DNA of 64,000 nucleotides, taken from IMG/VR virus record IMGVR_UViG_3300029955_000008, positions 1-64,000 of that record; one strand, 5' to 3'. This document shows positions 6,916 through 31,997 of this stretch, in pieces. A model generated the notes under the pieces. That model searched no databases, was not told where the DNA came from, and worked only from the letters and a program-made list of their open reading frames with translations. The position numbers and the translations under genes were made by a program. Origin of the DNA: a virus. How positions within the stretch are numbered: the first letter of the stretch is position 1; each line of letters starts with the position of its first letter.

Positions 6916-7163
6916 TGCCCTTGTTCTTCTATCTCTGTTCTTGTGGTCTGTCTTCTTCCAAGTTCTTCCGGGTGGTGGCTTCGGCCCCACTCGGAATTAC
7001 TTGTAAGTGTGGACTGGAGATGAAGAAACAACTCAAGGGACCTAGCAACAATAGTGTAATTATTGTGGATAATGGAATTCAATCAAAAGCCACGGAAGTC
7101 GATCTCGCCGTAGTTGCCTCGAACGAGGAAAATAGTACCAAAGATTTTAGAGAAAAACCTTGA
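6915..7163 (+). CDS. Small protein with two CxC motifs
   Basis: An 82-residue protein starting at ATG 6915, which overlaps the protease stop as TAATG. Two CxC motifs (CSC near residue 8 and CKC near residue 31) are spaced like a zinc ribbon. The second half is polar and low in complexity. An upstream TTG at 6903 is in frame, but the TAATG overlap favours 6915. Its end overlaps the promoter of the gp46-like gene. Function unknown. Confidence 0.55.
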   Translation: MPLFFYLCSCGLSSSKFFRVVASAPLGITCKCGLEMKKQLKGPSNNSVIIVDNGIQSKATEVDLAVVASNEENSTKDFREKP

Positions 7164-7188
7164 CTTTTTAAAGTCCCTCTGATATCCT
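7160..7188 (+). promoter_or_regulatory. Sigma70-type promoter, leaderless
   Basis: TTGACT (7160-7165), a 17-base spacer and TATCCT (7183-7188). The expected transcription start is 7195, one base before the ATG at 7196. No Shine-Dalgarno precedes that ATG, so a leaderless mRNA is predicted. Confidence 0.65.
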
Positions 7189-7195
7189 GTAATCG

Positions 7196-9367
7196 ATGCT
7201 AAAACTCAAAAAACTTACATTTTCTAATATAGGCCGTTTCACAGACGAGCAAAACGTTGACTTCACTAAACTCGGCTCCCTCGTGCAAGTAGACGCACAA
7301 AACAATAATACCGGTGGCAGCTCAGGTTCTGGGAAAAGTACCATTTTTAATGGGCTAGATTGGCTTCTCGGTCTATCCGACATCAGCACTTCTACTTTAC
7401 AATCTCGTCTAACCAAAAGTCATATCTCGGTTTCCGGTGAGTTCGATTGGGATGGGAAATCCGTTACAATAACTAGAAATCGAAAACTATCTATCGTCAT
7501 AGATGGCAACGAAACGACAGGCTCTAGTAAGATCAGCGAAGAGAAGCTCGATGAGATCCTGGGAATGCCCAGGAACCTATTCCGGCCTCTCCTTCATAAG
7601 CGCCAGGGAGAAACTGGCTTCTTTTTGGGCCTAACCCCGGCTAAGATGAATGATTTCCTAGTTGATACCTTAGGTCTGTCCCAAATCCGCTCTAAAGTCG
7701 ACGTAATCGACGGCAAGACCAAAGAATTGGGTCTGGCAAAGATAGGTGCGCAAACCGGCCTTGCAGTCGCCCAGGCCAGTCTAGAGGCTAATAAACGGGC
7801 CTTAGAGGCAGTAGGAGACGAACCCGTGACTAGCGTACACCAGGACCTCGTAGAAGGCTGGAAGCTGCGCTGTGTAGCCGCTAATACCGACCTAATGACC
7901 GCCAAAGACCGGCAGGCCATTGAGAAGTCTCAATTGGAAACCAAAAAGCCAAAACTAGTCATTAATCCTTTTTCAGCAGCGGCTTTAGAAGCAAACCAAA
8001 TGCGAGAAAAAGAACTCAACAGATTGATTAACGAATCTCTCTATCAGGAAAGAGATCGTCAGACTCTTGTAAATAAGGAGATCTCCAAGCTAAAACTGGA
8101 CCTATCTACCCAGGTCGCGACCATCAATGCCAGGACTAGTAAAGAAGTCGCCATTCTTAACGCTAAACTGTCGGAGACCGCTATGGCCATCCGTCTTGGA
8201 GCGATGTCTAAAGAGGAGGCCATTAAAATTGCCTCTAAAATTAAGACCGTAAGAGCTGGAACCTGCTATACCTGTAATCAAGTATGGGTTTCTGCTTCAG
8301 AAGAAGAGAGGTTATTGGCTAGTCTCGGCGAGCACAAGGCTAAGATAATCTCCGCAAAAGATGCGGAGAATAATGCTATTGAACTCCGCACCGCAATTGC
8401 CTATATCCAGGATAGTTCCAGTAAAGATATCGAAGGCCTTAATAAGGATTATTCACTTAATATTCAGGGATTGACGGAACAAGCCAAACCACGAATTCCT
8501 GCCGAGATCCCCGGTCTAAGAGCTGATTTGGCCAACATCATTGATTTGATCCAGAAAGAAAAAGTCAAGGAAGCCGCTCATAACGAAGAACAGAACAAGA
8601 CCAACAATCAGACCATGTCTGCTTTCTTCGCCGACCAAAAAGTTTTGGCCGCTAGACATCAAGAAGAACTCCAAGTTGTTAATAAAGAACTTGAAGAAGC
8701 TCGAAGTCAGTGTGAACGGCTTAGCTCCGAACTCAGGAATCACGAAACCAATCTGGCCAAACATAAACAGGTTCTGAAGAGTCTGACGGATGCCCAAAAC
8801 GAACAGACCTCAAAAGTAGAACAAATGACCCTAAAAGTAGGTCAAGTCGAAGAGAAGCTAGTCATGGCCGAGGAAGTCAAGCGCTGTCTTAAATCCTATC
8901 TGAGTTGCAGTTTTGATGATGCCTTGGATAGTATCAGCGATTCCGCGACGGCCATCCTACGGGCGGTTCCAACTATGGCAAACGCAACTATCCGTTTGGA
9001 AGGAACAAAGGAAACCGGCGCAGGAGCCATCAAAGATCAAATCAATGCCTGTATTGATAACGATGGAGAAATTGGAATTCCTATCAAAAGTCTTTCCGGT
9101 GGCGAGCGCTCAGCCGTAGATCTGGCCATCGATCTCGCTGTAGGCAATTTGATTCAAGAAAAAGCCAATAAAGGAATCGATGTCATGATCCTAGATGAGC
9201 CCTTTAATGGATTTGACAGCATTGGTATCGAGCATTCCCTTGAAATGATTAGGACTTTTGCCGTCGACAAGAAGATCTTGATCGTCGAACACGATGGCGT
9301 CGCAAAAGAGTTTATTCAGGACCGCATTACCGTAGTCCGCGACGGAGAAATTAGTAGTGTAAAATAG
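7196..9367 (+). CDS. SbcC/Rad50 (T4 gp46)-like ATPase
   Basis: A 723-residue SMC-type ATPase, the expected partner of the nuclease at 3896 in DNA-end resection. Walker A is GSSGSGKST (41-49). Long charged helices follow on each side of a zinc hook CYTC (357-360). The ABC signature LSGGE is at 633-637 and Walker B with catalytic Glu (MILDEP) near 664-669. The length exceeds T4 gp46 (560) because the coiled coil is longer. The start is fixed by a promoter whose predicted start point falls one base before the ATG. There is no ribosome-binding site, so translation is probably leaderless. Confidence 0.9.
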   Translation: MLKLKKLTFSNIGRFTDEQNVDFTKLGSLVQVDAQNNNTGGSSGSGKSTIFNGLDWLLGLSDISTSTLQSRLTKSHISVSGEFDWDGKSVTITRNRKLSIVIDGNETTGSSKISEEKLDEILGMPRNLFRPLLHKRQGETGFFLGLTPAKMNDFLVDTLGLSQIRSKVDVIDGKTKELGLAKIGAQTGLAVAQASLEANKRALEAVGDEPVTSVHQDLVEGWKLRCVAANTDLMTAKDRQAIEKSQLETKKPKLVINPFSAAALEANQMREKELNRLINESLYQERDRQTLVNKEISKLKLDLSTQVATINARTSKEVAILNAKLSETAMAIRLGAMSKEEAIKIASKIKTVRAGTCYTCNQVWVSASEEERLLASLGEHKAKIISAKDAENNAIELRTAIAYIQDSSSKDIEGLNKDYSLNIQGLTEQAKPRIPAEIPGLRADLANIIDLIQKEKVKEAAHNEEQNKTNNQTMSAFFADQKVLAARHQEELQVVNKELEEARSQCERLSSELRNHETNLAKHKQVLKSLTDAQNEQTSKVEQMTLKVGQVEEKLVMAEEVKRCLKSYLSCSFDDALDSISDSATAILRAVPTMANATIRLEGTKETGAGAIKDQINACIDNDGEIGIPIKSLSGGERSAVDLAIDLAVGNLIQEKANKGIDVMILDEPFNGFDSIGIEHSLEMIRTFAVDKKILIVEHDGVAKEFIQDRITVVRDGEISSVK

Positions 9368-9370
9368 TTC

Positions 9371-9399
9371 TTGACTTTAGGGAGGGCTTGTTGTAGATT
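9371..9399 (+). promoter_or_regulatory. Sigma70-type promoter, short leader
   Basis: TTGACT (9371-9376), a 17-base spacer and TAGATT (9394-9399). Transcription would start near 9406, just before AGGAG (9407-9411), giving an 11-base leader to the ATG at 9417. Confidence 0.65.
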
Positions 9400-9416
9400 A
9401 GCTGGCAGGAGACGAT

Positions 9417-9623
9417 ATGGAACGACAATGTCAATGCTCATGCAATTGTAGTGTTTGGACGACAAATAGCAACAGTATTTGTGGTTATTGCGATGATTGT
9501 TATAAGAAAAACTCTCGAACTTTCTCAGAGCAAATGAAAGAAGCATCGCTGACAATGGAAGCCAGAATTGAAGGTCTAGAAGCCGCCGTAAAACGTCTTA
9601 ACCGAGAACTGGGGCTAAAATGA
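9417..9623 (+). CDS. Small zinc-finger-like protein with coiled coil
   Basis: A 68-residue protein. The first 30 residues carry two cysteine clusters (CQCSCNC and CGYCDDC), enough for one or two zinc sites. The remainder is an amphipathic helix with a leucine pattern typical of a short coiled coil. It has its own promoter and a good AGGAG. The stop overlaps the next ATG (ATGA). It may be a small regulatory or adaptor protein; nothing more specific can be said. Confidence 0.65.
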   Translation: MERQCQCSCNCSVWTTNSNSICGYCDDCYKKNSRTFSEQMKEASLTMEARIEGLEAAVKRLNRELGLK

Positions 9624-10027
9624 TTCTACTTGAACTTACAACTAAAGAAGCCGAATTCATTAGGGAAGTCATTGCTTTGGAGAAAAACTCTGTGACTAAT
9701 TCCAAATTGGAATGGGCAGAAAAGGAAAGAAAAACAGGTATTTGTAATTCTTTTTTAGCTAAAGTAGATCACGCTTCGGAGCCACAAAAAGATGTTATGA
9801 TTACCGCCAACGATCTCTTTCTCCTGATCTCCCAGGCCAAACGGGAATATCTGAGTTTAAATAGCGGATTGCATATTTCCGGCATAGAGGTTGACAAAAA
9901 AGACCTCCCACATATTAGTGTGACCAACGCCTTATTGTTGTTTTTGAATGGGGAAAACTTACTGAAAAAAATGGTAAGATTTGATATAACCGACCAAAGC
10001 GGTCAATACGAGGAGCTAGAAGAATAA
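9620..10027 (+). CDS. Hypothetical protein
   Basis: A 135-residue mostly helical protein without a recognised domain. It begins with a hydrophobic-acidic helix (LLELTTKEAEFIREVIAL) and ends with an acidic tail. It is translationally coupled to the zinc-finger-like gene by ATGA and belongs to the operon driven from 9371. Function unknown. Confidence 0.6.
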   Translation: MILLELTTKEAEFIREVIALEKNSVTNSKLEWAEKERKTGICNSFLAKVDHASEPQKDVMITANDLFLLISQAKREYLSLNSGLHISGIEVDKKDLPHISVTNALLLFLNGENLLKKMVRFDITDQSGQYEELEE

Positions 10028-10028
10028 T

Positions 10029-10241
10029 ATGTTTGATACACATAAACTGAATGAAGCCGGATTTGCAGCGGTCAAAACGCTAAAAACGAATATGGCCGCA
10101 GCTGTCCAAGAAGCACTTTCCCTTATGCCAGAAGGTCGAGAAAGGTCTATTTTTGTAACCAAGATCGAAGAAGCAATGTTTTTTGGAACCAAAGCCGTTG
10201 CTTCCGATCGCAACTTTCACACAGAAGTAGTTAAATATTAA
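10029..10241 (+). CDS. Small hypothetical protein
   Basis: A 70-residue, probably all-helical protein one base after the previous stop. It is Ala-rich with a regular pattern of charged residues and no cysteine or metal motif. Its position in a string of small genes is the main support. Function unknown. Confidence 0.55.
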   Translation: MFDTHKLNEAGFAAVKTLKTNMAAAVQEALSLMPEGRERSIFVTKIEEAMFFGTKAVASDRNFHTEVVKY

Positions 10242-10251
10242 GGAGAATAAT

Positions 10252-10452
10252 ATGGAAAGACAGAAAGAATTATTTTTAGTTTGGCAAGGTGGAGCAGACG
10301 AACAGTTTTATAATCAATACGAGTCATTGGTAGATGCTGTTAGCTCAGAAGAAGAAGGTACTGAAATTTTTGAAGCAAAACTCACTTCTCTTGGTAGTTA
10401 TAGGCTAGTGACTAAGATGATAAAAGAAAAGAAATCAAAGAAGGCAGAATAA
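10252..10452 (+). CDS. Small hypothetical protein
   Basis: A 66-residue protein with a strong AAGGAG upstream of the ATG. Aromatic residues cluster in the first half (LFLVWQGG, FYNQY), and a lysine-rich tail ends the protein. The composition suggests a small folded domain with a basic extension. Function unknown. Confidence 0.6.
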   Translation: MERQKELFLVWQGGADEQFYNQYESLVDAVSSEEEGTEIFEAKLTSLGSYRLVTKMIKEKKSKKAE

Positions 10453-10453
10453 C

Positions 10454-10756
10454 ATGGCAAAATTCAAAAAAGAACCCCTCACAGAACTACAGAAAATTGC
10501 AAAGAAAATCGGACCCGATGCCGAAGACGTTCTAGCCGAACTCGAAGCCATGGATGTGCCCGGTCTTAACAAACGCATTGCTCAGGCAAACCAGGCAATA
10601 TCTGATACAAAGGAAGAACTGGATAACAATCCCGCCTATCAGCAAGTTCTGGCCGATAAGAAACTGCTCGGCAGCGGTTTCAAAGAAGTGAAAGCGCGGC
10701 AGAACGCGATTATTGCTATCTCGGTTCAACTCAGGAAGGACAAGGGAGAAGCATGA
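10454..10756 (+). CDS. Coiled-coil hypothetical protein
   Basis: A 100-residue, highly charged helical protein with heptad-like leucine and isoleucine spacing over most of its length. It starts one base after the previous stop, with AAGG upstream, and overlaps the next gene by 4 bases (ATGA). The composition fits a small scaffold or regulatory coiled coil. Function unknown. Confidence 0.6.
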   Translation: MAKFKKEPLTELQKIAKKIGPDAEDVLAELEAMDVPGLNKRIAQANQAISDTKEELDNNPAYQQVLADKKLLGSGFKEVKARQNAIIAISVQLRKDKGEA

Positions 10757-11082
10757 AAACCGCAGTCGAATCTAATGCAGAGACATTGGTGAGTAGAGGA
10801 GAGCGATTTAGTCTAGAAACCCTTATGTCTATTATAGAAGATAGTGTATGTAGATCTGTAGACGATGGCGAATTTGAAACTACTGTTGGTACATATAATT
10901 TTATCGCTTCTGATGTAGCTCTGGCTCAAAAAATACTAAAGAATTTGGGATACGATGTTGGAGATGGTGGTGATTATCTAAGAATAAACTGGTCGAGCCG
11001 CACAGTTCCGAAATCCCAATCCTGTGGACCCAGCTTCTGTGAAGACTGTAATTGTGGTAAGAAAGAGCAAGTTGAATGCTGA
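10753..11082 (+). CDS. Hypothetical protein with C-terminal cysteine cluster
   Basis: A 109-residue protein with an acidic helical body and a C-terminal segment carrying six cysteines (SCGPSFCEDCNCG and a final C), a likely metal site. It is coupled to the preceding gene by ATGA, and the resolvase gene starts inside its last 11 bases. Function unknown. Confidence 0.55.
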   Translation: MKTAVESNAETLVSRGERFSLETLMSIIEDSVCRSVDDGEFETTVGTYNFIASDVALAQKILKNLGYDVGDGGDYLRINWSSRTVPKSQSCGPSFCEDCNCGKKEQVEC

Positions 11083-11737: not shown

Positions 11738-11745
11738 TTTTTCCC

Positions 11746-11774
11746 TTGACAAGTTCCCAAAACAGTGTTATATT
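11746..11774 (+). promoter_or_regulatory. Sigma70-type promoter, short leader
   Basis: TTGACA (11746-11751), a 17-base spacer and TATATT (11769-11774), close to the -10 consensus. Transcription would start at about 11781, the first base of AGGAG (11781-11785), leaving a 13-base leader to the ATG at 11794. Confidence 0.75.
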
Positions 11775-11793
11775 TACCCCAGGAGCATAAACT

Positions 11794-12723
11794 ATGGCTA
11801 AAAATATTTGGGACGACGAACCCTTTCGTGATGGAGCGCCCACACTTCAAAACGGCGAGTGGCAGGATCAAGAAACCTACACCCCGGCTCCTGATAATGT
11901 AATCAGGGAAGCTCGCGCTATTCAGGCCAAAACTCAGGAAGAATACGATGTTGAAGAACTTACAGATCAAGTAGCCGAAGATGGCGAGAACGAAGACGAA
12001 GATTTCACAGAAATGCTATCCGATGCCAGACTTCGCCTAGAGCAGGGTAAGCTATACGAGATGATCATCAAGCACGATCTATTTAAGGATGTAGAAGCCG
12101 ATCCCCGTGCTGTTAAAATCGTTACCAAACAAATGCAGAAAATAGCCAAAGAACTCATGGAAACCATGCTTGGTATGCGTCAAACCGTTCAAGCCGCGCC
12201 TTCCATGATTAGTTCTCCCTTCAATAGCCTTGAAGTCGACATTCTAAAGAAACTAGCCAGTGCTGCCTCCAAAGGCGCCACAGAGACCGAAGAAGCCCAG
12301 GATGAGATGCCGGAACCCGCCGCATCTCCCAAGAGGAAGACACTTAATACCATTGGAAGCAGCCGACCTCAGCCTAAGCCCGCTCCTAGACCAATTGCTA
12401 AGAAACCCGAGCCCCTTAAGCGTCAGGCTAAGCCAAAGCTAGAATTACCACCTGAGTTTGAGCCCGATTATGTTCCCCTGGATAAGCCTATCCATAAGAT
12501 GAGCGCCCAGGAACTTGCAGAACGTGACAAACAAGCCTTGGATCGCCAAAGAGGTCGTAAATCCGCGCCTCCTCCTGACAAAGCCCCTATGCCGGATTAC
12601 CAAACCCAGGAAATGCTAGCAATGTCGCAGGCTTCTAGGGCAACTGGCGGAGTAGGTGGAATGACCGGCCTAAATGGAAAGTTGTCACAGCTAATTATAG
12701 CTGGCGCAATCAAGAAAGTATAA
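11794..12723 (+). CDS. Largely disordered hypothetical protein
   Basis: A 309-residue protein that is mostly low-complexity. It has an acidic N-terminal third, a short helical region (about residues 70-155), then a Pro-, Lys- and Ala-rich linker (about 165-265) and a Gly-rich end. No catalytic motif is visible. Such a layout fits a scaffold or interaction hub. It has a near-consensus promoter and AGGAG, so it is probably abundant. Function unknown. Confidence 0.65.
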   Translation: MAKNIWDDEPFRDGAPTLQNGEWQDQETYTPAPDNVIREARAIQAKTQEEYDVEELTDQVAEDGENEDEDFTEMLSDARLRLEQGKLYEMIIKHDLFKDVEADPRAVKIVTKQMQKIAKELMETMLGMRQTVQAAPSMISSPFNSLEVDILKKLASAASKGATETEEAQDEMPEPAASPKRKTLNTIGSSRPQPKPAPRPIAKKPEPLKRQAKPKLELPPEFEPDYVPLDKPIHKMSAQELAERDKQALDRQRGRKSAPPPDKAPMPDYQTQEMLAMSQASRATGGVGGMTGLNGKLSQLIIAGAIKKV

Positions 12724-12739
12724 AGTATAAAGTAGAAAT

Positions 12740-13656: not shown

Positions 13657-13664
13657 GGAATACG

Positions 13665-15275: not shown

Positions 15276-15651
15276 AACCGAAGATCTTGCAAAGCTAGGT
15301 GTTGCAGCAAAAGATATCGAACAAAGAATGACATCCATTAAAGCTAATATGGATACTATTAAAAAAGAACTCGATTTTTTAACTACGGTAGAAGAACAGC
15401 TAGATAGCAATGTAAAGTATCTCAAAAAGGTAAAGATCGTCGCACTAGCCAGTGAATACAAAAAAGCCAGAGAAGACCTCAAAAAGACTAAGACTCGCTT
15501 GGGCCAGATCAAAGGCGACTTAGGCAATAATGAAAGAGCATATAAAGAGCTGGAAGCAATGCTCAAAAAGAACAAGGAGGTCTATGATAAACTCTCAAAA
15601 ACAAGTGATAACAACGTATTACAAGGGAAGTTTGGCCGACGCAATGGTTAA
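15268..15651 (+). CDS. Coiled-coil hypothetical protein
   Basis: A 127-residue, highly charged, almost wholly helical protein with heptad repeats through about residue 110. The ATG overlaps the end of the A1-like gene by 8 bases and has GGAG 5 bases upstream. The next gene starts inside its 3' end, an overlap of 68 bases. Function unknown; it could be a partner of the neighbouring phosphoesterase. Confidence 0.6.
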   Translation: MGKTEDLAKLGVAAKDIEQRMTSIKANMDTIKKELDFLTTVEEQLDSNVKYLKKVKIVALASEYKKAREDLKKTKTRLGQIKGDLGNNERAYKELEAMLKKNKEVYDKLSKTSDNNVLQGKFGRRNG

Positions 15652-15853
15652 AGAATTGATGATGAAAAGAGTTATGGAAGAACCCGACTTCGTTAAATGC
15701 TCGAAGTATGGGAATTCATTGGTTAAATATCTTTCCGGCAATAGCGGTGAGATCAAGGATAAGACCATTGCTAGATTACTAATGATCGCCGAAGACGACG
15801 TCGAAAGAATTTATCAAGAAGCTGTTGACATTTTAAGACGCGGTGTGGTATAG
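15584..15853 (+). CDS. Small hypothetical protein
   Basis: An 89-residue helical protein starting MINSQKQVITTYY. A longer reading from 15530 is open, but ATG 15584 has a near-perfect AAGGAGG a few bases upstream, so I choose it. The gene overlaps the coiled-coil gene by 68 bases, unusually long for this genome. The 3' end contains the promoter of the RNase H gene. Function unknown. Confidence 0.6.
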   Translation: MINSQKQVITTYYKGSLADAMVKELMMKRVMEEPDFVKCSKYGNSLVKYLSGNSGEIKDKTIARLLMIAEDDVERIYQEAVDILRRGVV

Positions 15854-15854
15854 T
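15825..15854 (+). promoter_or_regulatory. Sigma70-type promoter, leaderless
   Basis: TTGACA (15825-15830), an 18-base spacer and TATAGT (15849-15854), lying within the last codons of the upstream gene. The predicted start point is 15861, exactly the A of the RNase H start codon. Confidence 0.65.
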
Positions 15855-15860
15855 TGGCGT

Positions 15861-16508
15861 ATGAAGATCGAGATCTACGCAGATGGGTCGGGGCAGACTA
15901 GTAACACCGATGGCGGATACGGCTGGGTAATGGTTGTAGACGGAGTCGTTCATTCCGAGGGCTCTGGACATGTCTCAAATGCCACAAACAACGATATGGA
16001 GTTGGAAGGCGCAATACAGGGACTATCGGCTGTAGGTAGACTGGCTTGGCCTCCTCTAAAGATTCTGGGCAATTTTGAGGCTGTGGAAATTGTACCACCA
16101 GAAGTTACATTGATAAGCGACAGTCAAATCGTTCTCGGCTGGGCTTCTGGAGCCTACCAATTCAAACAGCTCAACAAGATAGATAAATATAATCAGCTGG
16201 TAACCTTAATGTCCAGGTTAGGAGCCAAAACCCGTTGGGTCCGTGGCCATAGCGGTGATATTCATAATTCCAGGTGTGATCAGCTCGCTAGTAACGCACG
16301 TAAAGGCGTAACTACGAATTGTCTTGACAAACTTACTCCAAAGATGGATACTCGTATCGGAACCAAAAAGGCTGGAACGGCCTCGGTTTGGCACAAGGAC
16401 GTGCTTTACGTTATGGACTTTGAAAACATGGTCATGGAGAAATACGATCGCGAAGCCCATGGAAAACGGGGCTCTATGATTGAGATACGCGAGGAGAAGA
16501 GTAGATGA
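15861..16508 (+). CDS. rnhA: Ribonuclease H (type I)
   Basis: A 215-residue RNase HI that cuts the RNA strand of RNA-DNA hybrids, probably removing Okazaki primers. The catalytic acids are D8 (ADGSG), E47 (DMELEGAI), D87 (ISDSQIV) and D140 (RCDQLA), with H130 before the last one. About 70 extra residues follow the core. The start at 15861 fits the start of the first RNase H strand (MKIEIYADG) and coincides with the predicted transcription start, so translation is probably leaderless. T4 RNase H is an unrelated FEN-type nuclease, so this is a bacterial-type replacement. It overlaps the next gene by ATGA. Confidence 0.9.
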   Translation: MKIEIYADGSGQTSNTDGGYGWVMVVDGVVHSEGSGHVSNATNNDMELEGAIQGLSAVGRLAWPPLKILGNFEAVEIVPPEVTLISDSQIVLGWASGAYQFKQLNKIDKYNQLVTLMSRLGAKTRWVRGHSGDIHNSRCDQLASNARKGVTTNCLDKLTPKMDTRIGTKKAGTASVWHKDVLYVMDFENMVMEKYDREAHGKRGSMIEIREEKSR

Positions 16509-22150: not shown

Positions 22151-22179
22151 TTGACATTTTTAAAACGATTTAGTATATT
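22151..22179 (+). promoter_or_regulatory. Sigma70-type promoter, leaderless
   Basis: TTGACA (22151-22156), a 17-base spacer and TATATT (22174-22179). The predicted start point is 22186, exactly the A of the subtilase start codon. No Shine-Dalgarno is present. Confidence 0.75.
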
Positions 22180-22185
22180 ACCGAT

Positions 22186-22905
22186 ATGAAGCGTTTGGTT
22201 TACCCCCTACTCGTATGGCTTTTGGTCTCAACCCTGGTATACGCCAGGACCCACCACAAGCCCGGTAAGACGCTTCGTATTGCCGTAATCGACACCGGAT
22301 TGGATCTCAACGATCCCCGCCTCAGCAACCATCTCTGCAGAACCGGTCACAAAGATTTCACCGGTGAAGGCCTGGTTGATTTGAACGGACACGGCACACA
22401 TATCGCCGGTCTTATAGAAAAATATGCGGGTGAGGGAAACTACTGTCTTGTGATATATAAGTACTTTGCAACCGGTGACAAAGCCAAATACAATGCCAGG
22501 CATGAAGTCGACGCTATAGCCGAAGCCGTTAAAAATCACGTCGACGTTGTTAATATTTCCAGCGGTGGACCGGAGTTTGTAAAAAGAGAGTATGATTTAA
22601 TCAGGTTTCATCCAAGAACCACCTTTGTTTTGGCAGCTGGAAACGAAGGACACGATCTAGACAGAGATTGTAACTACTATCCGGCTTGCTACCTGCTCGG
22701 TAACGAAAAAATTGTCGGAAATGTCACAGAAACCGGAGCCATGGTTACATCTTCTAATTACGGCAACGTGCTTTCAGCGGTAGAAGTTGGGGACAATGTT
22801 TTGTCAACAGCACCTAACGGTGGTATGACACACAGCACTGGAACCAGCCAAGCCACAGCAATTAGAACCGGCAAGCTTATAAAGGAAATGTTAGATGCAA
22901 AATAA
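22186..22905 (+). CDS. Exported subtilisin-like serine protease
   Basis: A 239-residue subtilase. Residues 1-20 form a signal peptide (Lys-Arg, a hydrophobic run, cleavage near VYA). The triad is D36 (VIDTG), H69 (NGHGTHIAG) and S221 (GTSQA), with the oxyanion Asn at 153 (AAGNEG). The protein lacks a pro-domain and is shorter than typical subtilisins (275 mature residues), so it is a minimal catalytic domain. It likely acts outside the cytoplasm. Four cysteines lie in the middle and could be paired. The promoter sets a leaderless start at ATG 22186. Subtilases are uncommon in phages; the target is unknown. Confidence 0.85.
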   Translation: MKRLVYPLLVWLLVSTLVYARTHHKPGKTLRIAVIDTGLDLNDPRLSNHLCRTGHKDFTGEGLVDLNGHGTHIAGLIEKYAGEGNYCLVIYKYFATGDKAKYNARHEVDAIAEAVKNHVDVVNISSGGPEFVKREYDLIRFHPRTTFVLAAGNEGHDLDRDCNYYPACYLLGNEKIVGNVTETGAMVTSSNYGNVLSAVEVGDNVLSTAPNGGMTHSTGTSQATAIRTGKLIKEMLDAK

Positions 22906-23137
22906 CGTCTTTCAAAACAGAGTGGTCAAAACCAAAAAATTAGGCAAGGATGCTTTAATGCAGGTTAGCATAAATGAAATCGCTAAGCGGATTTTTGTTG
23001 ACTTTTCATCCGTAGATGGTAGGATTAAGATTCAGAAGAGTTTTCAAGACACTTTTGAGGGTAAGAAACTAGCTAAGGAATTTGAAAAAAGATTTAAAAA
23101 TCTAAATGAAATTAAGGGTTATTTAGGTATTAAATGA
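22895..23137 (+). CDS. Small basic hypothetical protein
   Basis: An 80-residue Lys-rich protein with a beta-like central segment and helical ends. The ATG lies 11 bases inside the subtilase gene, with AAGGA about 9 bases upstream, and the stop overlaps the next ATG (ATGA). The basic character would suit nucleic-acid binding. Function unknown. Confidence 0.6.
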   Translation: MQNNVFQNRVVKTKKLGKDALMQVSINEIAKRIFVDFSSVDGRIKIQKSFQDTFEGKKLAKEFEKRFKNLNEIKGYLGIK

Positions 23138-23496
23138 AGAAGATTAAAACCAAACCCAGAGAAGTAGAGGTTTATCTGGATGGTACTGATTGGCGGTATG
23201 AAATCGGTCATGCCGCTGATGGTAATCGTGTCTATCCCAGCGTCGATTGTCTTAAAGAAGAAAATAAGTGCTGGGATGAGTGTGGGATAGTTAAATGTAA
23301 GCTGGTTTTTATGGAAACCGTGATTCCGGAAGTCGATCCTAAAGATTGGAAAAACACCACTCCTATGGTGGAATGCGATGTAGATAGGGACCGCTTAGCA
23401 GCCGCAGAAAGACACTTAGGATATCTCGAAGAAAAAGTGATGAAACAGCTGAATAAGGTTATTCAGTTAAAAGCAAATATAAAGGGGAAGAAATAA
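23134..23496 (+). CDS. Hypothetical protein
   Basis: A 120-residue protein. The first 80 residues look like a small beta-rich domain with four cysteines (CLKEENKCWDEC and a later C), and the last 35 form a basic helix. It is coupled upstream by ATGA; the next gene starts at its stop (TAATG). Function unknown. Confidence 0.6.
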   Translation: MKKIKTKPREVEVYLDGTDWRYEIGHAADGNRVYPSVDCLKEENKCWDECGIVKCKLVFMETVIPEVDPKDWKNTTPMVECDVDRDRLAAAERHLGYLEEKVMKQLNKVIQLKANIKGKK

Positions 23497-24275
23497 TGTC
23501 GTTATCAAGTATTCTAGAACAAATCAAGACGGTTAAACCAATTGCAGAGATGGATATCCTCGTAGGACCCAGAGAAACGTATGCGGGACGAGAAGGTATG
23601 CAACGCAATGCCAAAGAAGAATTTAAGACGCTAAAAGAACAGTATACCAACGAACTCCGCCAAACCGCAGCCTTCATCCTGATATCGGGCTCCGGCAAGG
23701 AAACCTTTCAAACCCTAGCTACTACTGAGTTCAACTGCTTTTCAGCGGACAGCGAGGGCTTCTATAAGGCATTGGCTGATCGCATCCCCGCCGAACTCTA
23801 CGCTAATAAGACGCCAGCGGGCAATCTGTTCGATGTCATGGGGCGACACCTTGAAGACATGGCCAATGATCTCGGGATTATCGGATATCCTCAACTGATC
23901 TTTAAACAACAATATCAACGCGCTATCGATGGAAAAGCTGACTTTGTGAAGCTGATTAAGCAAGCCATTAATGAACAAGTGGGTTCGGAAATCGTGGGTA
24001 TCTATACTGCTAAAGTTTTGACCGATGAAGCCATTTCTAAAAACCATGGTCTTTCTATTACTCCAGTTGTCATGACTACCGATGACGAAGCCTTGGCTTT
24101 AGATCTCAACGAAACACTATATCGCGCTGGTTCCCGAGCTTTCTTGGTGGCTGCTGGGAAGGGCGCCAAGAGCATTCGAGCCGTGGAAGGTGCATTTGCT
24201 ATCAAAGAAGTCGATGCCGATAGTGTAAAAAATGTCTTGACAAATATAAGCAAGATGTGTAAGAATATACGATGA
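23496..24275 (+). CDS. Hypothetical protein
   Basis: A 259-residue alpha/beta protein with no motif that I recognise. A helical N-terminal half is followed by a region (about 150-250) with alternating strands and helices. It lies directly upstream of the SSB gene and overlaps it by ATGA. The promoter at 24237 lies inside its 3' end. The neighbourhood suggests a DNA-replication or recombination role, but this is position only. Confidence 0.6.
   Translation: MSLSSILEQIKTVKPIAEMDILVGPRETYAGREGMQRNAKEEFKTLKEQYTNELRQTAAFILISGSGKETFQTLATTEFNCFSADSEGFYKALADRIPAELYANKTPAGNLFDVMGRHLEDMANDLGIIGYPQLIFKQQYQRAIDGKADFVKLIKQAINEQVGSEIVGIYTAKVLTDEAISKNHGLSITPVVMTTDDEALALDLNETLYRAGSRAFLVAAGKGAKSIRAVEGAFAIKEVDADSVKNVLTNISKMCKNIR
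24237..24265 (+). promoter_or_regulatory. Sigma70-type promoter before the SSB gene
   Basis: TTGACA (24237-24242), a 17-base spacer and TAAGAA (24260-24265), a weaker -10 than the others because it lacks the final T. The predicted start is about 24272, the first ATG of the SSB reading frame. Confidence 0.45.
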
Positions 24276-25421: not shown

Positions 25422-25538
25422 ATGGGGTTTTACCGTCCAGCGGGTAGTGAATTGTACAATAGCGAACCCGGTAGCCAATGGTGTCCCGGCCCACAATTTA
25501 AGGTAAAAAATGGTGTCCCGGCCCACAATTTAAGGTAA
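25422..25538 (+). CDS. Possible 38-residue leader peptide gene
   Basis: A short open frame starting MGFYRPAGSELYNSEPG lies in the 151-base gap between the SSB and UvsY-like genes, with AGG 8 bases upstream of the ATG. The 32-base tandem duplication at 25478-25541 changes its last codons. With only one repeat copy it would read on past the next start codon. It may be a real small protein, a leader peptide, or chance. Confidence 0.3.
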   Translation: MGFYRPAGSELYNSEPGSQWCPGPQFKVKNGVPAHNLR

Positions 25539-25541
25539 AAA
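25478..25541 (+). repeat. Tandem 32-base duplication with mini-ORFs
   Basis: Two exact copies of a 32-base unit (25478-25509 and 25510-25541) end directly at the ATG of the next gene. Each begins with ATG and encodes the seven-residue peptide MVSRPTI, then a stop. Each ends with TAAGG and an A-run that can serve as the ribosome-binding site of the next ATG. The result is three evenly spaced start sites. Confidence 0.9.
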
Positions 25542-26066
25542 ATGAGCGACTTAGTAACAAATGAACAAGCGATAGTGCTCCCAGCCTTTGGTAAAACACC
25601 CCAGCTGAGACTAGAGATGTCGGTTATAAGGGAAGCAGAACGACGGCTAATCGAAGCTAAAACAGTGTCTCCGGTGACTTACGCTGATTTGAGTCATACC
25701 TACAATGAAAGCTATCGCGTGCTTAAACAACACCTGTCCAGTTTAGGTTTCCATCTGATGGCGACTGATAAAGCCCTTGAGGAAGCCAAGGCCGAAGTAA
25801 TCCTGGGAAGCTATGCGGAATTTCTTGTAGATAAACCCAAGAGTACGGGTAGTGCGGATCTCAGGAATGCTTTTCTTATCAAGGATCCCGCCTATAATGC
25901 TGCTTTGGACCGTATCAATCAACTCAAGGCGTTGATCTCCAACTTTGAGGGCAAGGTTAAAGTCTTAGAAAACGTGGTTTCTTATATGAAACAAGAGATG
26001 TACTTGGTCAGCAGGTCGGGATTAAGTGGTAAAAATTTACATGTAACGAGTGGAGAAGGAAATTGA
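25542..26066 (+). CDS. Possible UvsY-like recombination mediator
   Basis: A 174-residue helical protein between the SSB and UvsX-like genes. Its second half (YAEFL ... DLRNAFLIKDPAYNAALDRI ... LISNFEGKVKVLENVV) follows, loosely, the order of charged and hydrophobic residues in the C-terminal half of T4 UvsY, which loads UvsX onto gp32-coated DNA. The gene order SSB, mediator, recombinase also fits. The similarity is weak and by eye; length exceeds T4 UvsY (137). The start follows the duplicated leader at 25478. Confidence 0.4.
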   Translation: MSDLVTNEQAIVLPAFGKTPQLRLEMSVIREAERRLIEAKTVSPVTYADLSHTYNESYRVLKQHLSSLGFHLMATDKALEEAKAEVILGSYAEFLVDKPKSTGSADLRNAFLIKDPAYNAALDRINQLKALISNFEGKVKVLENVVSYMKQEMYLVSRSGLSGKNLHVTSGEGN

Positions 26067-26067
26067 A

Positions 26068-27117: not shown

Positions 27118-27131
27118 TACCAAAGGCACAA

Positions 27132-28019
27132 ATGAAATTACCCGACATTCATAAGCGGATTTCGCATAAAAACGAGTTCGAACTCTGTTTTCTTAGACAT
27201 CAATACCTGCGTCGTATAAAGCATAACGCCACCAGAGAGGAAATGGAGCCATATCTTAAGATCGTCGATAACTTCGGGAAGAACACTTATTATACTTACA
27301 AAAATCTATTTCTTTTGGTTGGCATGGACTTCGAAGACGTACTCAACATTACCCAGGTATATCTCGCCACTTATATTGGATTATTCGCCTTAGAAAGAAA
27401 TCCGGATAAGCTCAGAGAATTTAAAGCGGCTTTCAAAAATCGAAACAGTATTCGTTGCTCAAAAGAAAATATTTTGGATAAGAATAAGGCAAACTTCACC
27501 TGCTTCCTTAAGCAACGCCTGCAAGACTTGGTCCGCGTCTGCCGTCAAAAAGCCAAGAATATTAAGGGGATTGTCGCCGAAGAATTTTTGGTCTTTACGG
27601 GAACCAAAGCCCCTCCAGTTGACATCGAAGAGCTGTTGGAAAGCCACGACAGGTACGGCTATCGCCCACTGGACACCAACGTGTTCAAAACCATTAAGAA
27701 GAAAATTATGGGCCAGGAAGGTCCGGTATACACATTTAATAAAAACTGGTATGTTTGTGTGCCAATTCGAAAAAAGGCCTTGACCTTAACCGACTTCGTG
27801 TGTAATAATTATGATCCAAGGGAGAACCTTTGCAACATGACACCCGAAGAGTACCTGGACGTAAAAGATGAAGCCGTGCGGTCTCGCGAATTCCAAGAGT
27901 CTTCCGCAGAAGATAAAGCCGAAGTCATCAGAACGTTTTTAGTTAAAAACGAAGAAAATCCAGAGTTTGAAGAAGAAGTTCGGATTGCTCAAAAGTTTCT
28001 CAAGAATTTAGGGGTTTAG
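27132..28019 (+). CDS. Hypothetical protein, possibly sigma-like
   Basis: A 295-residue protein. Its central part (about 50-145) has a pattern faintly like sigma-factor region 2 or T4 gp55: an acidic-hydrophobic helix (DFEDVLNITQVYLATYIGLF), a loop, then an aromatic and basic helix (FTCFLKQRLQDLVRVCRQKAK). The match is weak. ATG 27132 has AAAGG 5 bases upstream and is preferred over GTG 27114, which overlaps the UvsX-like stop. The C-terminus is strongly acidic. A replication accessory role is equally possible from position. Confidence 0.45.
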   Translation: MKLPDIHKRISHKNEFELCFLRHQYLRRIKHNATREEMEPYLKIVDNFGKNTYYTYKNLFLLVGMDFEDVLNITQVYLATYIGLFALERNPDKLREFKAAFKNRNSIRCSKENILDKNKANFTCFLKQRLQDLVRVCRQKAKNIKGIVAEEFLVFTGTKAPPVDIEELLESHDRYGYRPLDTNVFKTIKKKIMGQEGPVYTFNKNWYVCVPIRKKALTLTDFVCNNYDPRENLCNMTPEEYLDVKDEAVRSREFQESSAEDKAEVIRTFLVKNEENPEFEEEVRIAQKFLKNLGV

Positions 28020-28601
28020 ATGGAAGCCAATGTAAGTTTCGAAGAAGTCGTCCGTGCATGGCTACTTGAGTACGACGACCGCTTGCCAAATGACAAAAAA
28101 GATCGTATAGAAGCGTTTATAGTGCTTTTGGGCAACCTTGCCGAGTACGGTTTTAAAAAAGAAGACATCACTAATACCAGAAAAGAAAAGATCGTTCGCA
28201 GCTGTGTCAATCCCAATCACCATAAGAGCAAATTGAAGATATGGGTTTCCATGGTAGTCCAGGCTTTTGAAGCCGCAGTCCTTATTTACTACGGCACGGT
28301 TAAGATCAAAAAAGACGTCGTGACCCCAGAAATGGCAGCTAAGATCGACTCCATCGGTCAGAAAGCCGAAGAAGGTAGGGAACTTAGAAGCCCTTCAGCT
28401 AGTCACGACGACAACCACGACCCCGACGCTCCCTTAAACCTAGAAGGCGATCCTATTGACATCGACATAGCCGTAAGACAGGCTGTTAGGAATCCCGGAG
28501 ACGCGCCGGAATTTGAGATCACCGACGCCATGCTAGACGGGATGGACGGTCCTGAGATCGTCTGGGACGCTGATTTTAACAAGAAACTGGGCATCGAATG
28601 A
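28020..28601 (+). CDS. Hypothetical protein upstream of the helicase
   Basis: A 193-residue protein starting directly after the previous stop. Residues 1-95 are helical. The second half is acidic and rich in Asp and Pro, probably disordered. It overlaps the helicase gene by ATGA. A helicase-loader role (as T4 gp59 has) is suggested only by position; no gp59 motif is visible. Confidence 0.55.
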   Translation: MEANVSFEEVVRAWLLEYDDRLPNDKKDRIEAFIVLLGNLAEYGFKKEDITNTRKEKIVRSCVNPNHHKSKLKIWVSMVVQAFEAAVLIYYGTVKIKKDVVTPEMAAKIDSIGQKAEEGRELRSPSASHDDNHDPDAPLNLEGDPIDIDIAVRQAVRNPGDAPEFEITDAMLDGMDGPEIVWDADFNKKLGIE

Positions 28602-29752
28602 GCGAAGCCGTTAAAAAGTTCCAAGAAGCGCTGGAAAAAGATCAAGCGTATGAAAAGGAACTCAATAAAAAGAAAAAAGAAGTCCAAGAAAAGCGACTTC
28701 TGGTGGATGAGTTCAAGCTCACCAATGAATTGGAGCGCATTACTCAAAACAAATCCGACATGGCTAAAGCTAAGAATGTCAACGTCGGTATTATGAGTGA
28801 AGAAGAAATCGCTGACACGCAGGCCAAAAATAGAGCCTATTTAGAGGGCGCTAAAAACGGCATGTTATTTTTAAATGAAAGTTTTAGGAAGTACATCCCG
28901 CTATGGGCTGGTAATATCGTTTTAATCGGTGCCAGAACCGGTTCTGGTAAGAGTAGTGCGGCTGCTAATCTGATCCTAACAACTATGACGCAAAAGCATC
29001 CGGAAACCGGAGAGAATCGTAAAATATTAACTATTAGCTGTGAAGAAACCCCTCTACAAGTCTATAACCGTCTAACCTGTTTGGTTAAGGGCTACGACTA
29101 CAGCGATCAAGACACCTATACCGATCAGCAAAAACAGGATCTTGTGGATTTCAGTGGTAAATGGCCAAGGCTCGGTATCAGCGTCATCGGAGAGGATGGT
29201 AGAGGTCGTACCGACAGCGTGGAAGGTATTCGTAGTATTTTTGAAGCTCTGGTCTCTAGCGGAACCCAATACGATTTAATTATCATCGACTACATTCAGA
29301 AAATCATCAATAGTAAAAGCAATCCCAGCGCAAAACCTTACGATGTCCTTAAAGAAGTGATGAGCGTTCTTGACCATTACAAAAACATATATCCGGCTTG
29401 TATAGTTGTGATGAGTCAGCTGAGTTCTCAGAAATCCGGCGATCCCGAAAACGAACTAGATTTTCAAGACCGCCTGAGAGGATCCAGAGATATTATCACA
29501 CCGTGTACAGTGGCCATGGAAATGGTTCCCGACTTTCAAAAACTCAAGACTCGTTGGCATATCAGAAAAAACAGATATAAGGGTAGTGTTGTTGGCGGTT
29601 ACATTGATACCGCCTACGATAAAGGCCGTTTTAAGCCCCTAACCCCAGCATGGGAAAAGATGGTGGCTGAGAGAAATGAAGCCAAAGAACGTGCCGATAG
29701 TGTTGGTAAATACGAAAACAAAAAGGGAGATGAAAATGGACAGAAAAACTAG
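28598..29752 (+). CDS. Replicative DNA helicase (gp41/DnaB-like)
   Basis: A 384-residue RecA-fold hexameric helicase. After a charged N-terminal helical region come Walker A GARTGSGKS (111-119), a CEET segment near 149 carrying the catalytic Glu, Walker B IIIDYIQ (about 227-233), MSQLS (about 270) and RLRGSRD (about 292-298), the arginine-finger region. The N-terminal domain is shorter than in bacterial DnaB; the overall length is nearer T4 gp41 (475) than DnaB. It lies two genes upstream of the primase, as expected for a primosome. Confidence 0.88.
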   Translation: MSEAVKKFQEALEKDQAYEKELNKKKKEVQEKRLLVDEFKLTNELERITQNKSDMAKAKNVNVGIMSEEEIADTQAKNRAYLEGAKNGMLFLNESFRKYIPLWAGNIVLIGARTGSGKSSAAANLILTTMTQKHPETGENRKILTISCEETPLQVYNRLTCLVKGYDYSDQDTYTDQQKQDLVDFSGKWPRLGISVIGEDGRGRTDSVEGIRSIFEALVSSGTQYDLIIIDYIQKIINSKSNPSAKPYDVLKEVMSVLDHYKNIYPACIVVMSQLSSQKSGDPENELDFQDRLRGSRDIITPCTVAMEMVPDFQKLKTRWHIRKNRYKGSVVGGYIDTAYDKGRFKPLTPAWEKMVAERNEAKERADSVGKYENKKGDENGQKN

Positions 29753-30110
29753 GGAAGAATTGAGTCAGTTGTCAACGCAGGTATTTGGTAGCAGTTCGAA
29801 ATGGCAGAAATTTGTCGAAGACGGCGAAATGGTGCCAGTTATGGAAACCGTCAAAGTTTTAGACGGCGCCACCAAGGAAACCAAAGAAGAACAACGCCAG
29901 GTCATGCACATGGGCAAGAATGGTGCCGAAGTACCAAAATTTGAGATCAAACACTACACCGCTGAAACCATTCGAGAACGGATGATTACGATTAAGACCC
30001 AAAAAAAACAGGTCCAGGCTCTGATTGAGAAATTACAAAAAGAAGAAGCTGATAAGAAAGCCGCTATCGAAGCCGTAACCGCTCAATCCGGCAGTGCAAA
30101 TATCGCTTGA
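29736..30110 (+). CDS. Hypothetical protein
   Basis: A 124-residue charged, mostly helical protein with a coiled-coil-like C-terminal third. A longer reading from 29676 overlaps the helicase gene by 77 bases; ATG 29736 has AGGGAG 6 bases upstream, so I choose it. The stop overlaps the promoter of the primase gene. It lies between helicase and primase and might bridge them. Function unknown. Confidence 0.55.
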   Translation: MDRKTREELSQLSTQVFGSSSKWQKFVEDGEMVPVMETVKVLDGATKETKEEQRQVMHMGKNGAEVPKFEIKHYTAETIRERMITIKTQKKQVQALIEKLQKEEADKKAAIEAVTAQSGSANIA

Positions 30111-30135
30111 CTTTTACATACAGTGGGTTTAGGAT
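30107..30135 (+). promoter_or_regulatory. Sigma70-type promoter, leaderless
   Basis: TTGACT (30107-30112), a 17-base spacer and TAGGAT (30130-30135). The predicted start point is 30142, exactly the A of the primase start codon. The -35 overlaps the stop codon of the upstream gene. Confidence 0.65.
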
Positions 30136-30141
30136 GGGATT

Positions 30142-31002
30142 ATGAAGGATTTGAAATCCCTCCTAGTACTACTATTTAACGAAGGCGAAGAATGTTGTCC
30201 GGCTCCAGGACCTCAAGCGTACCATTCAATTACTTTGCCAACTATGTTGTCAGGCGAATTCACATTGGTTAGTAATAATCCCAATGTTCCCATAAAAATA
30301 GTTGGGTCTGAAACCCTTACTCACTTGGCCATCAACCCCGTCAAAGGACCTAGAAACGATGACAACGTAACCGCATACCGTACTTTTATGTGGGAAATCG
30401 ATGTCGGCAAACTCAGCGCTCAACTAGAATACTTTAAGAAAATAGGTATGCCCTATAGTGCTGCCATTTATAGTGGTGGCAAATCTATACATTTCTTAAC
30501 AGTTCTGGACCAAGACATAGATAAGAAGAGTTACCACTATTTTTACGCTTGGGCTCTTAAGGTGTTGACATTATGTGACGATAGCTGCAAGAATCCAACC
30601 AGGTGTGTTAGGATTCCCGGAGCCATCAGGCCGGATACGGGTAAGAAGCAGAGATTGGTAGAACTACATGGTAGGGTTAGATTTGAGGATTTCCAAACTT
30701 GGTTTGAAGCTCACGAGGATTCTAGACCCCAGATCCGTGAGAAAAGAAAAAGCTTGACAGGCGATGGGGACTATGATAAGTTATCAGGGTGGGCGAAAAA
30801 GCAGTTAAAAGATGGAATCGATTTTAGTAAAGGTAGGAATAGAACATGGTTCGCTCTGTTTGTAGATCTGGCTCAGAGCGGTTATACTGAGGAAGAAGCG
30901 GAAGGGATTTTGCGACCCTACTATCAGGAAGAACACGATTTTAAGGAACGCGAGTGGCTGGCCTGTATAAAGAGTGGTTTTAAATACGCGGAAGGAAAAT
31001 GA
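30142..31002 (+). CDS. Archaeo-eukaryotic-type primase
   Basis: A 286-residue protein with the layout of small AEP/prim-pol primases. Acidic motif I is WEID (84-87), motif II SGGKSIH (111-117), then a CVRIPGAIRPDTGKKQ segment (155-170) typical of the nucleotide-binding part of the fold. The C-terminal 80 residues resemble a PriCT-like helical domain. It would make RNA or DNA primers for the DnaE-like polymerase. T4 uses a TOPRIM primase (gp61), so this is a different type. The predicted transcript starts at the ATG, so translation is probably leaderless. Confidence 0.72.
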   Translation: MKDLKSLLVLLFNEGEECCPAPGPQAYHSITLPTMLSGEFTLVSNNPNVPIKIVGSETLTHLAINPVKGPRNDDNVTAYRTFMWEIDVGKLSAQLEYFKKIGMPYSAAIYSGGKSIHFLTVLDQDIDKKSYHYFYAWALKVLTLCDDSCKNPTRCVRIPGAIRPDTGKKQRLVELHGRVRFEDFQTWFEAHEDSRPQIREKRKSLTGDGDYDKLSGWAKKQLKDGIDFSKGRNRTWFALFVDLAQSGYTEEEAEGILRPYYQEEHDFKEREWLACIKSGFKYAEGK

Positions 31003-31542
31003 ATGATAAGGGATAAAGAACTCGAAAGACTAATAAGTTACGCCAAGGGCTTAGGTCTTAAGGTTACTTTTTCCAATAAAGACTATGGAGCTTCCGCCCT
31101 TTGGTCTCTGGATAATTCTGAAATTACAATTTGTAAAAATAAAAATAAATCAAAAATAGAGACAATTCTTAGCATAATCCACGAGTTAGGACATTCTTTA
31201 CACAATACCCATGAGCAGAATCGAAAAATTGACACAAAACTAGAAGAGGCCTTGAACCATATCGAGGACGCCGAAGAATTTAATATAGAGTCTAAAAAGA
31301 GACAGCGCAAGATCAGTTTGGATTGCGAAATCGCGGGAACCAAATACTGGCATGTGATTTACAAAGACACAAATATGAATTTCCCTATTTGGAGACTCGA
31401 AGCCGCTATGGAATTTGATCTCTACCAATATGAGTATTTTTACGAAAACGATCGCTGGCCCTCTTTTAAAGAAAAGTCTAAAAAGAAAAAAGAGATCAAA
31501 AAAAAACACAGAGGTAGGCTAGTCAGGGTAAAGAAGGATTAA
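31003..31542 (+). CDS. Zincin metallopeptidase-like protein
   Basis: A 179-residue protein with HELGH (60-64), the HExxH motif of zincins, and a later WRLEAAMEFD segment (130-139) supplying a candidate third ligand (E133 or E137). This pairing resembles the ImmA/IrrE group, members of which cleave phage repressors. The last 30 residues are almost all Lys and Arg and could bind DNA. No signal peptide, so it acts in the cytoplasm. The start follows the primase stop directly, with GAAGGA upstream. Confidence 0.65.
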   Translation: MIRDKELERLISYAKGLGLKVTFSNKDYGASALWSLDNSEITICKNKNKSKIETILSIIHELGHSLHNTHEQNRKIDTKLEEALNHIEDAEEFNIESKKRQRKISLDCEIAGTKYWHVIYKDTNMNFPIWRLEAAMEFDLYQYEYFYENDRWPSFKEKSKKKKEIKKKHRGRLVRVKKD

Positions 31543-31997
31543 TGGATTTATCAGCCTATACCTTAATGCCTGAGCCTAACAGCACGTACCTCTACAACAC
31601 CCATACCATACCGGTCCAGGAACCCCTGAGCGGCTCTACGATGGGCCTAATGATGCTTCTATCTAGTCTACAGTACCAAGCCCCCTATGTTCCGAGTCAA
31701 TACCAGCAGGCGGCTAGTCAGGCAGGGAAGGCGGCCTTTATAGACGTAGGGGGACAAGCAACTCAAGATCAAGCCAATGCGGCTATAGGCAAGATGGGTA
31801 AACAAGCTTCAGATACGGCTTTAGGGATCGTCCATTCGATAGGGATCACCGATACAGAGCTTGGAGCTAGCTATATGGTCTATAAAGTCTTAAACGATCG
31901 TAAAATCGATCTGAGTATGATTAAAATAGGTGGGGTACGATTTAACTTGACATTGGATCCACAAGATGTTAGCGTCGGTCTTAACTATGGCTGGTGA
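31542..31997 (+). CDS. Hypothetical protein
   Basis: A 151-residue protein with a Ser-, Gln- and Ala-rich middle (about 45-90) and a compact end. It starts at the stop of the zincin gene (TAATG). The composition is more like a structural or secreted protein than an enzyme. The 3' end contains the promoter for the CYTH-domain gene. Function unknown. Confidence 0.55.
   Translation: MDLSAYTLMPEPNSTYLYNTHTIPVQEPLSGSTMGLMMLLSSLQYQAPYVPSQYQQAASQAGKAAFIDVGGQATQDQANAAIGKMGKQASDTALGIVHSIGITDTELGASYMVYKVLNDRKIDLSMIKIGGVRFNLTLDPQDVSVGLNYGW
31947..31975 (+). promoter_or_regulatory. Sigma70-type promoter, near-leaderless
   Basis: TTGACA (31947-31952), a 17-base spacer and TAGCGT (31970-31975), inside the 3' end of the upstream gene. 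The predicted start is about 31982, five bases before ATG 31987. No Shine-Dalgarno fits in that leader. Confidence 0.55.

Follow-up and report, generated by a model that had tools for sequence, protein, structure and literature searches.

The stretch of DNA analysed here (64,000 nucleotides, positions 1 to 64,000 of the IMG/VR record IMGVR_UViG_3300029955_000008; hereafter the window) is part of a phage record of 97,953 bases, and hosts genes predicted to be expressed from leaderless mRNAs, which are the subject of this analysis. Six of them, encoding a gp46/SbcC-like protein, an RNase H, a subtilisin-like protease (subtilase), an SSB-like protein, a primase and a CYTH-like protein, had been singled out in a sequence-only reading. 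The same phage is represented by a sister contig, G001 (IMGVR_UViG_3300029908_000007, 162,308 bases), 99.98% identical over 97,940 bases; positions in G001 minus 61,326 give positions in the window. No DNA-level relatives of window positions 5000-29000 were found in the phage collection. Among named phages, the nearest found is Myxococcus phage Mx1 (OR576727.2). The DNA polymerase III alpha proteins of the two phages are 37% identical in pairwise alignment, the capsid proteins 54%; portal, terminase large subunit (TerL), sheath and sigma factor are also homologous, the replication gene order is similar, and the phage is regarded as Mx1-like. A scan by polymerase alignment identified 39 loci, the window phage itself among them. 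Pattern searches covered 24 of the 38 related records, and whole records were taken for 16 relatives besides G001.

Three motif classes are distinguished: class E (TTGACW-N16-18-TANNNT), class A (TGATATANN, interpreted as an extended -10 element) and class B (YAATCT(T)). The gap is the number of bases between the last base of the -10 and the start codon. Counts for ten genomes refer to G001, G003, G004, G006, G010, G012, G013, G020, G021 and G025. The gene caller written for gene-level tests uses codon usage and start-codon type, and ignores promoters and Shine-Dalgarno (SD) sequences.

Class E promoters are far more abundant than expected. The window contains 22 TTGACW-N16-19-TANNNT sequences where 5.3 would be expected, and none of 100 shuffles reached 22. 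In the 162 kb of G001, the N16-18 form followed by an ATG 3-14 bases downstream was found 12 times, and never in a reversed-pattern control. Matches with gaps of 5-9 number 75 in the 24 related records (18 of which contribute), the reversed-pattern control giving 3; a few of these 75 matches overlap or recur at contig ends, and no open reading frame (ORF) was demanded. In the ten genomes, with alternative starts allowed, the gap is two-peaked: 20 sites have gap 6 and 17 gap 7. Gaps of 10-15 account for three sites and gaps of 16-22 for 21, each of these 21 having an SD sequence in the leader, after the -10. Of the 76 sites located within 40 bases of a called start, 33 are at gap 6-7, where a uniform distribution would give 3.7 (p = 2e-23). 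Gaps of 10-13 are unoccupied, and the 39 sites at gap 14 or larger include 35 with an SD sequence. In the near group the -10 thus ends about 6-7 bases upstream of the start codon. An SD match follows the -10 in only one of 42 sites at gap 3-9, where the short gap leaves scant room for it. The SD contrast between gaps 5-9 and gaps of at least 14 is significant for class E (p = 2e-8), class A (p = 1e-8) and class B (p = 2e-12). Seven further genomes gave a similar picture for class E, with nine sites at gaps 6-9, one at 10-17, 13 at 18-30 and one at gap 0. Among 18 genomes, with called starts, leaderless placement of class E was found in 12.

The same procedure places all 23 class E sites of Mx1 at gaps of at least 14, 21 of them with an SD sequence; when alternative starts are allowed, 24 sites lie at gaps 18-34. 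No near-start class E site was found in 100 kb of T4 or in 50 kb of SPO1. Since Mx1, T4 and SPO1 lack the gap 6-7 peak, the peak is not made by the pattern or the pipeline, and a pipeline artefact is rejected. P23-45, taken as positive control, has one near-start site in 50 kb, at gap 15, and is uninformative.

In bacteria, transcription tends to start at a purine (+1) preceded by a pyrimidine (-1). Of 102 genes at gap 5-9 (the three classes pooled, 11 genomes including Mx1), 80% have a pyrimidine immediately before the start codon, against 48% of 1,909 others (p = 8e-11); the figure is 55% for 194 genes in which a class motif lies further out. The bias supports +1 on the A of the ATG. Upstream spacing is also wider at near-gap genes (median 44 bases, n = 99) than in the comparison set (13.5 bases, n = 1,692).

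Classes A and B were first spotted in upstream sequences and k-mers of G001, the other genomes not being used to define them. In the ten genomes the most frequent gap is 6 for class A (13 of 62 sites) and 7 for class B (23 of 162). Permuting the letters abolishes the peaks: AATCTT is found 23 times at gap 6 and the next best of 60 letter orderings 3 times, TGATATA 13 times at gap 8 and the next best of 140 orderings 4 times. Shuffles, reversed-pattern controls and motif permutations lead together to the rejection of chance. Class A is mainly limited to the nearer relatives. Class B is more widespread: it is found at gap 6 in 14 cases in the seven further genomes, and its leaderless placement, with called starts, in 13 of 18 genomes. 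CAATCTT exceeds expectation upstream of genes in 10 of 11 genomes (10 against 0.8 in Mx1); the exception, G013, features TAATCTT instead (11 occurrences, 16.6-fold). Over the three classes, G001 has 19 genes at gap 5-9. Those in the window start at 25, 38202, 38988 and 46315 on the minus strand, and at 2095, 7196, 15861, 22186, 30142 and 58388 on the plus strand.

Orthologous genes may carry the same motif at different distances. Motif B lies at gap 7 from the head protease gene in G001, G020, G014 and Mx1, and at gap 9 in G023; it is found at 20-32, along with an SD sequence, in G004, G006, G010, G012 and G025, and three further orthologs lack it there. At the sigma factor gene, motif A is placed at gap 6 in three genomes (G006, G003, G020) and at gap 9 in G001; one of eight other orthologs has it, at 32. 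Motif A precedes TerL at gap 6 in two genomes (G001, G006), and in G003 the gene has a TTGACW promoter with gap 8; none of the three motifs is present at the 13 remaining orthologs. The major capsid gene features an SD sequence in 12 of 13 genomes.

The geometry of these sites, the two-peaked gap, the SD contrast, the initiator bias and the recurrence in relatives suggest that the first genes of transcripts come in two layouts, a reading to which a probability of about 0.84 is given from sequence data. In the first layout, in which the -10 ends 6-7 bases before the ATG, transcription by RNA polymerase would begin at the A of the ATG and yield a leaderless mRNA; the 5'-terminal AUG of this mRNA would recruit 70S ribosomes, as leaderless mRNAs do according to excerpts of a review (PMC9031893). 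In the second, a promoter of the same kind would lie further from the start, by about 10 or more bases, leaving a short leader that carries the SD sequence. The promoters involved would be sigma70-like TTGACW..TANNNT (subtilase, gp46, primase, perhaps RNase H), the extended -10 TGATATANN (sigma factor, TerL, portal), and YAATCTT, which probably serves late genes and may be read by the phage sigma factor. One motif at two discrete positions, with and without an SD sequence and sometimes in orthologs, makes a switch of initiation mode directly testable. The data also single out a possible late promoter motif in this little-studied family, of which Mx1 is the only cultured member found, and a rule for fixing start-codon annotation in such phages.

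The six genes fit the leaderless prediction to different degrees. Promoters expected to start transcription on, or one base before, the ATG had been proposed for gp46, RNase H, subtilase and primase, and their spacing has been confirmed; the CYTH and SSB sites were also found where described (Table 1). The leaderless reading is well supported as a prediction, by the gap bimodality tied to SD loss, by the promoters kept in relatives at the subtilase and gp46 genes and by the initiator bias, but not for all six genes. Ortholog comparisons used one match per record, excluding matches that start beyond query residue 60. The strongest case is the subtilase, which has a hydrophobic, signal-peptide-like N-terminus, and for which a promoter at gap 6-7 was found in six of 11 relatives (G006, G004, G018, G002, G015, G010), or seven if an alternative start in G020 is counted. 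The protease gene sits between those for DNA polymerase and SSB, and is present in 11 relatives. Good predictions are also gp46, the proteins of its relatives aligning from residue 1 or nearby, and the primase. The latter requires a caveat: AGGA is found inside its TAGGAT -10, 8-11 bases upstream of the ATG, and the claim that SD sequences are missing is valid here only if the transcript begins at the ATG. RNase H is plausible. Its promoter overlaps the ORF 15530-15853, with the -35 within the ORF and the stop TAG within the -10. SSB and CYTH are doubtful. The SSB ATG overlaps the stop of the upstream gene as ATGA (24272-24275), and 11 of its 15 orthologs begin 12-19 codons downstream, one begins 8 codons downstream, and three (G002, G015, G025) align without offset. 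Promoter and start of the CYTH gene, whose inherited label found no match in Pfam or PHROGs, lie within the upstream ORF 31542-31997; of five orthologs, the four closest (G010, G020, G006, G012) start 13-23 codons later, and that of G014 2 codons later. Leaderless placement, noted for several replication genes in the sequence-only reading, is limited neither to such genes nor to TTGACW promoters.

Several observations weigh against the leaderless reading. The -10 to ATG distance, kept at the subtilase in six of 11 relatives, is not retained at many orthologs of the other genes. The gp46 geometry is shared by G006 (46% identity, gap 7) and G004 (36%, gap 6), and missing in the other 11 of 13 relatives; RNase H has a comparable promoter in one of 13 (G020), the start not being examinable in G014, one of the 13; none of six primase relatives passed the stricter test, G006 having TTGACA and a weak -10 at a gap of about 6-7. 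With called starts, leaderless placement was absent for class E in G009, G012, G014, G018, G020 and Mx1, and for class B in G003, G006, G010, G016 and G018. TANNNT alone is raised at gap 6 in G013, G025, G004 and G001, not in G006, G010 and G012, and in Mx1 it occurs 7 times at gap 6 against 2.9 per position. In G001 alone, the class E SD contrast has p = 0.08. An SD-like 4-mer was found between -17 and -3, a stretch that includes the -10, in 10 of 37 class E genes at gap 5-9. Class E numbers carry some selection, because the ten genomes were picked after their class E matches had been seen; classes A and B were unseen at that time. The gene caller is a simple one, with a preference for ATG starts. 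Finally, the sole metagenome-assembled genome (MAG) carrying a fragment of this phage family lacks such promoters of its own. This Planctomycetaceae MAG gave the single match in a scan of genome contigs by capsid alignment, a 16-kb contig, possibly mis-binned, with a capsid gene 66% identical. The pattern was matched twice in the MAG, one match being on the phage contig, while the control gave 8 matches; the MAG therefore does not identify the host, and provides no example of a leaderless one.

Start-site choice varies by a few bases. Transcription might begin slightly off the A, leaving leaders of 1-5 bases or starting within the ATG, and the mRNAs would then be almost leaderless, or be translated from a start codon further downstream. 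This fits the spread of class A gaps over 5-9 and the CYTH gene, which would have a 5-base leader. It is nevertheless judged unlikely, as the gaps peak at 6 in classes E and A and at 7 in classes E and B, a pyrimidine is at -1 in 67-93% of these groups, and gp46 and primase orthologs align from the predicted start or at most two residues off. Even less credit is given to readthrough from upstream promoters, with SD-less starts used by coupling or A/U-rich initiation and the promoter-like sites being secondary or fortuitous. The ATGA arrangement of SSB, the overlap of the RNase H promoter with the upstream ORF, and the lack of such promoters at most gp46, RNase H and primase orthologs are in line with it, but readthrough predicts neither the sharp gap 6-7 peak, nor the initiator bias, nor the wider upstream spacing, nor the 75-to-3 excess over the reversed pattern. 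That the near-ATG motifs, AATCTT above all, are ribosome-binding elements replacing the SD sequence rather than promoters would account for the fixed ATG distance and the lack of SD sequences, and no clear -35 partner was seen for AATCTT, but is very improbable: the same motif is found also 14-40 bases out, mostly before SD genes (90 of 112), and so between orthologs, YAATCT resembles a -10 and has a modal gap of 7, near those of the other classes, and one motif at two distances is better explained by a promoter.

The coordinates of the sites identified in the window are reported in Table 1. For the class A site at 55646, one version of the gene caller chose the in-frame ATG 55634 instead. The composite site is most likely SD-led, because the likeliest start, GTG 44963, follows GAGGT; GTG 44945, considered as a leaderless start, was dropped in its favour. 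This site is part of a divergent region (44780-45120), in which a TTGACA promoter, CAATCTT and TGATATA overlap on the plus strand, and motifs A and B are present also on the minus strand. A second divergent promoter region, at 58332-58406, includes the A-type palindrome ATGATATACTATATCATATGA.

Table 1. Promoter-like sites and associated genes in the window (gap in bases)
Feature	Coordinates (strand)	Motif	Gap	Start and remarks
gp46/SbcC-like gene 7196-9367	7160..7198 (+)	TTGACT-17-TATCCT, -10 end 7188	7	
RNase H gene 15861-16508	15825..15863 (+)	TTGACA-18-TATAGT, -10 end 15854	6	
Subtilase gene 22186-22905	22151..22188 (+)	TTGACA-17-TATATT, -10 end 22179	6	
SSB-like gene	24237..24274 (+)	TTGACA 24237-24242, 17 spacer, TAAGAA 24260-24265	6	ATG 24272
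Primase gene 30142-31002	30107..30144 (+)	TTGACT-17-TAGGAT, -10 end 30135	6	
CYTH-like gene	31947..31989 (+)	TTGACA-17-TAGCGT, -10 end 31975	11	ATG 31987
TerL gene, class A	23..41 (-)		6	ATG 25
Class A before sigma factor gene	2077..2097 (+)	TGATATANN	9	no SD
Phage sigma factor	2095..3150 (+)			PHROG 351 'RNA polymerase sigma factor', E 1.9e-9
Class A	38200..38221 (-)		9	ATG 38202
Class A	38986..39006 (-)		8	ATG 38988
Class A	55644..55664 (-)	TGTGATATA	7	ATG 55646
Class A	58371..58390 (+)		7	ATG 58388; 191-aa ORF, reality uncertain
Class B	46313..46329 (-)	CAATCTT	8 (YAATCT)	ATG 46315; no SD
Class B, SD-led counterpart, baseplate protein	58332..58356 (-)		16	ATG 58334; GAGG
Composite site	44910..44965 (+)	TTGACA, CAATCTT, TGATATAGT, overlapping		GTG 44963
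SD-led counterpart	3151..3200 (+)	TTGACA..TAGAGT	18	ATG 3198; AGGAG
SD-led counterpart	9371..9419 (+)	TTGACT..TAGATT	17	ATG 9417; AGGAG; 68-aa ORF absent from gene calls
SD-led counterpart	11746..11796 (+)	TTGACA..TATATT	19	ATG 11794; AGGAG
SD-led counterpart	46338..46387 (+)	TTGACT..TAGGGT	18	ATG 46385; GGAGG

The sigma factor gene of the window encodes a candidate reader of the motif B promoters, proposed as such because gene and motif occur in the same phages. The protein has no Pfam sigma match; it is 32% identical to the putative sigma factor of Mx1, and its match to SigA chains is weak (best E 0.002). For the Mx1 homolog, a match to Sigma70_r2 was obtained with E 9e-4, under the Pfam cut-off. 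A wider reading, in which leaderless mRNAs are a standing second mode of expression throughout infection in a whole lineage of large phages, served by three promoter classes, with YAATCTT read by their own sigma factor and genes changing layout by promoter shifts of about 10 or more bases, is tentative, and is rated somewhat below an even chance. On this reading, selected genes would evade the control exerted on SD-dependent initiation.

Leaderless use in several replication genes of one phage, which the sequence-only reading deemed unusual, is less so than implied. Excerpts of the relevant papers indicate that leaderless phage transcripts are already known: most middle and late mRNAs of the Thermus phage phiYS40 are reported to be leaderless, IF2 being up and IF3 down (PMC3594737), promoters whose +1 coincides with the first base of the start codon have been predicted in cluster O mycobacteriophages, the Corndog group (PMC4351075), a leaderless transcript has been predicted for gene 90 of Adephagia (PMC11373665), and phage transcripts are called 'often leaderless' in a paper on AR9 (PMC5312081). 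As in phiYS40, many genes of one phage would be expressed from leaderless mRNAs; in contrast to the middle and late genes concerned there, the layout is found here also at sigma70-like promoters of replication genes, and in an Mx1-like myovirus lineage. As in the mycobacteriophages, the +1-on-start-codon promoters are predictions, but the excerpts describe three promoters in cluster O and one in Adephagia, whereas 19 genes and three promoter motifs are involved here in one genome. According to similar excerpts (PMC3160421; PMC12340547), the layout is common in Deinococcus-Thermus and Actinobacteria. The resemblance to Deinococcus-Thermus lies in a -10 located a few bases upstream of the ATG, the lack of an SD sequence and the leaderless mRNA, predicted in the present case; there it is a cellular trait, whereas here it concerns phages, of which only Mx1 has a known host, and the TTGACW class has a -35. 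Mx1 resembles the window phage in replication gene order, DNA polymerase, capsid protein and sigma factor, and has YAATCT at gap 7 from five genes, but all its near-start TTGACW promoters are at SD-led distances. The terms 'leaderless' and 'promoter' are both absent from the searched text of the Mx1 genome paper (PMC10720576), and no report of leaderless transcription in this phage family was found in the literature searched, in which subscription journals are thinly covered.

A few other features have been noted. The 100 bases at the beginning of G001 are repeated further along the contig, and its last bases resemble the same repeat units; G000 matches G001, at its end, also in a second register shifted by 54 bases. 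These end repeats may have limited assembly. A GroEL-like gene (G001 22376-24142, minus strand) encodes a protein 39% identical to its Mx1 counterpart. A TnpB/Cas12f-like gene (G001 138445-139530, minus strand; L012:18445-19530; Cas12f1-like_TNB, E 4.6e-16) has its own TTGACT..TAGGCT promoter, at gap 6. In the window, two identical 36-base copies offset by 32 bases are found at 25477-25544, and reach the ATG at 25542.

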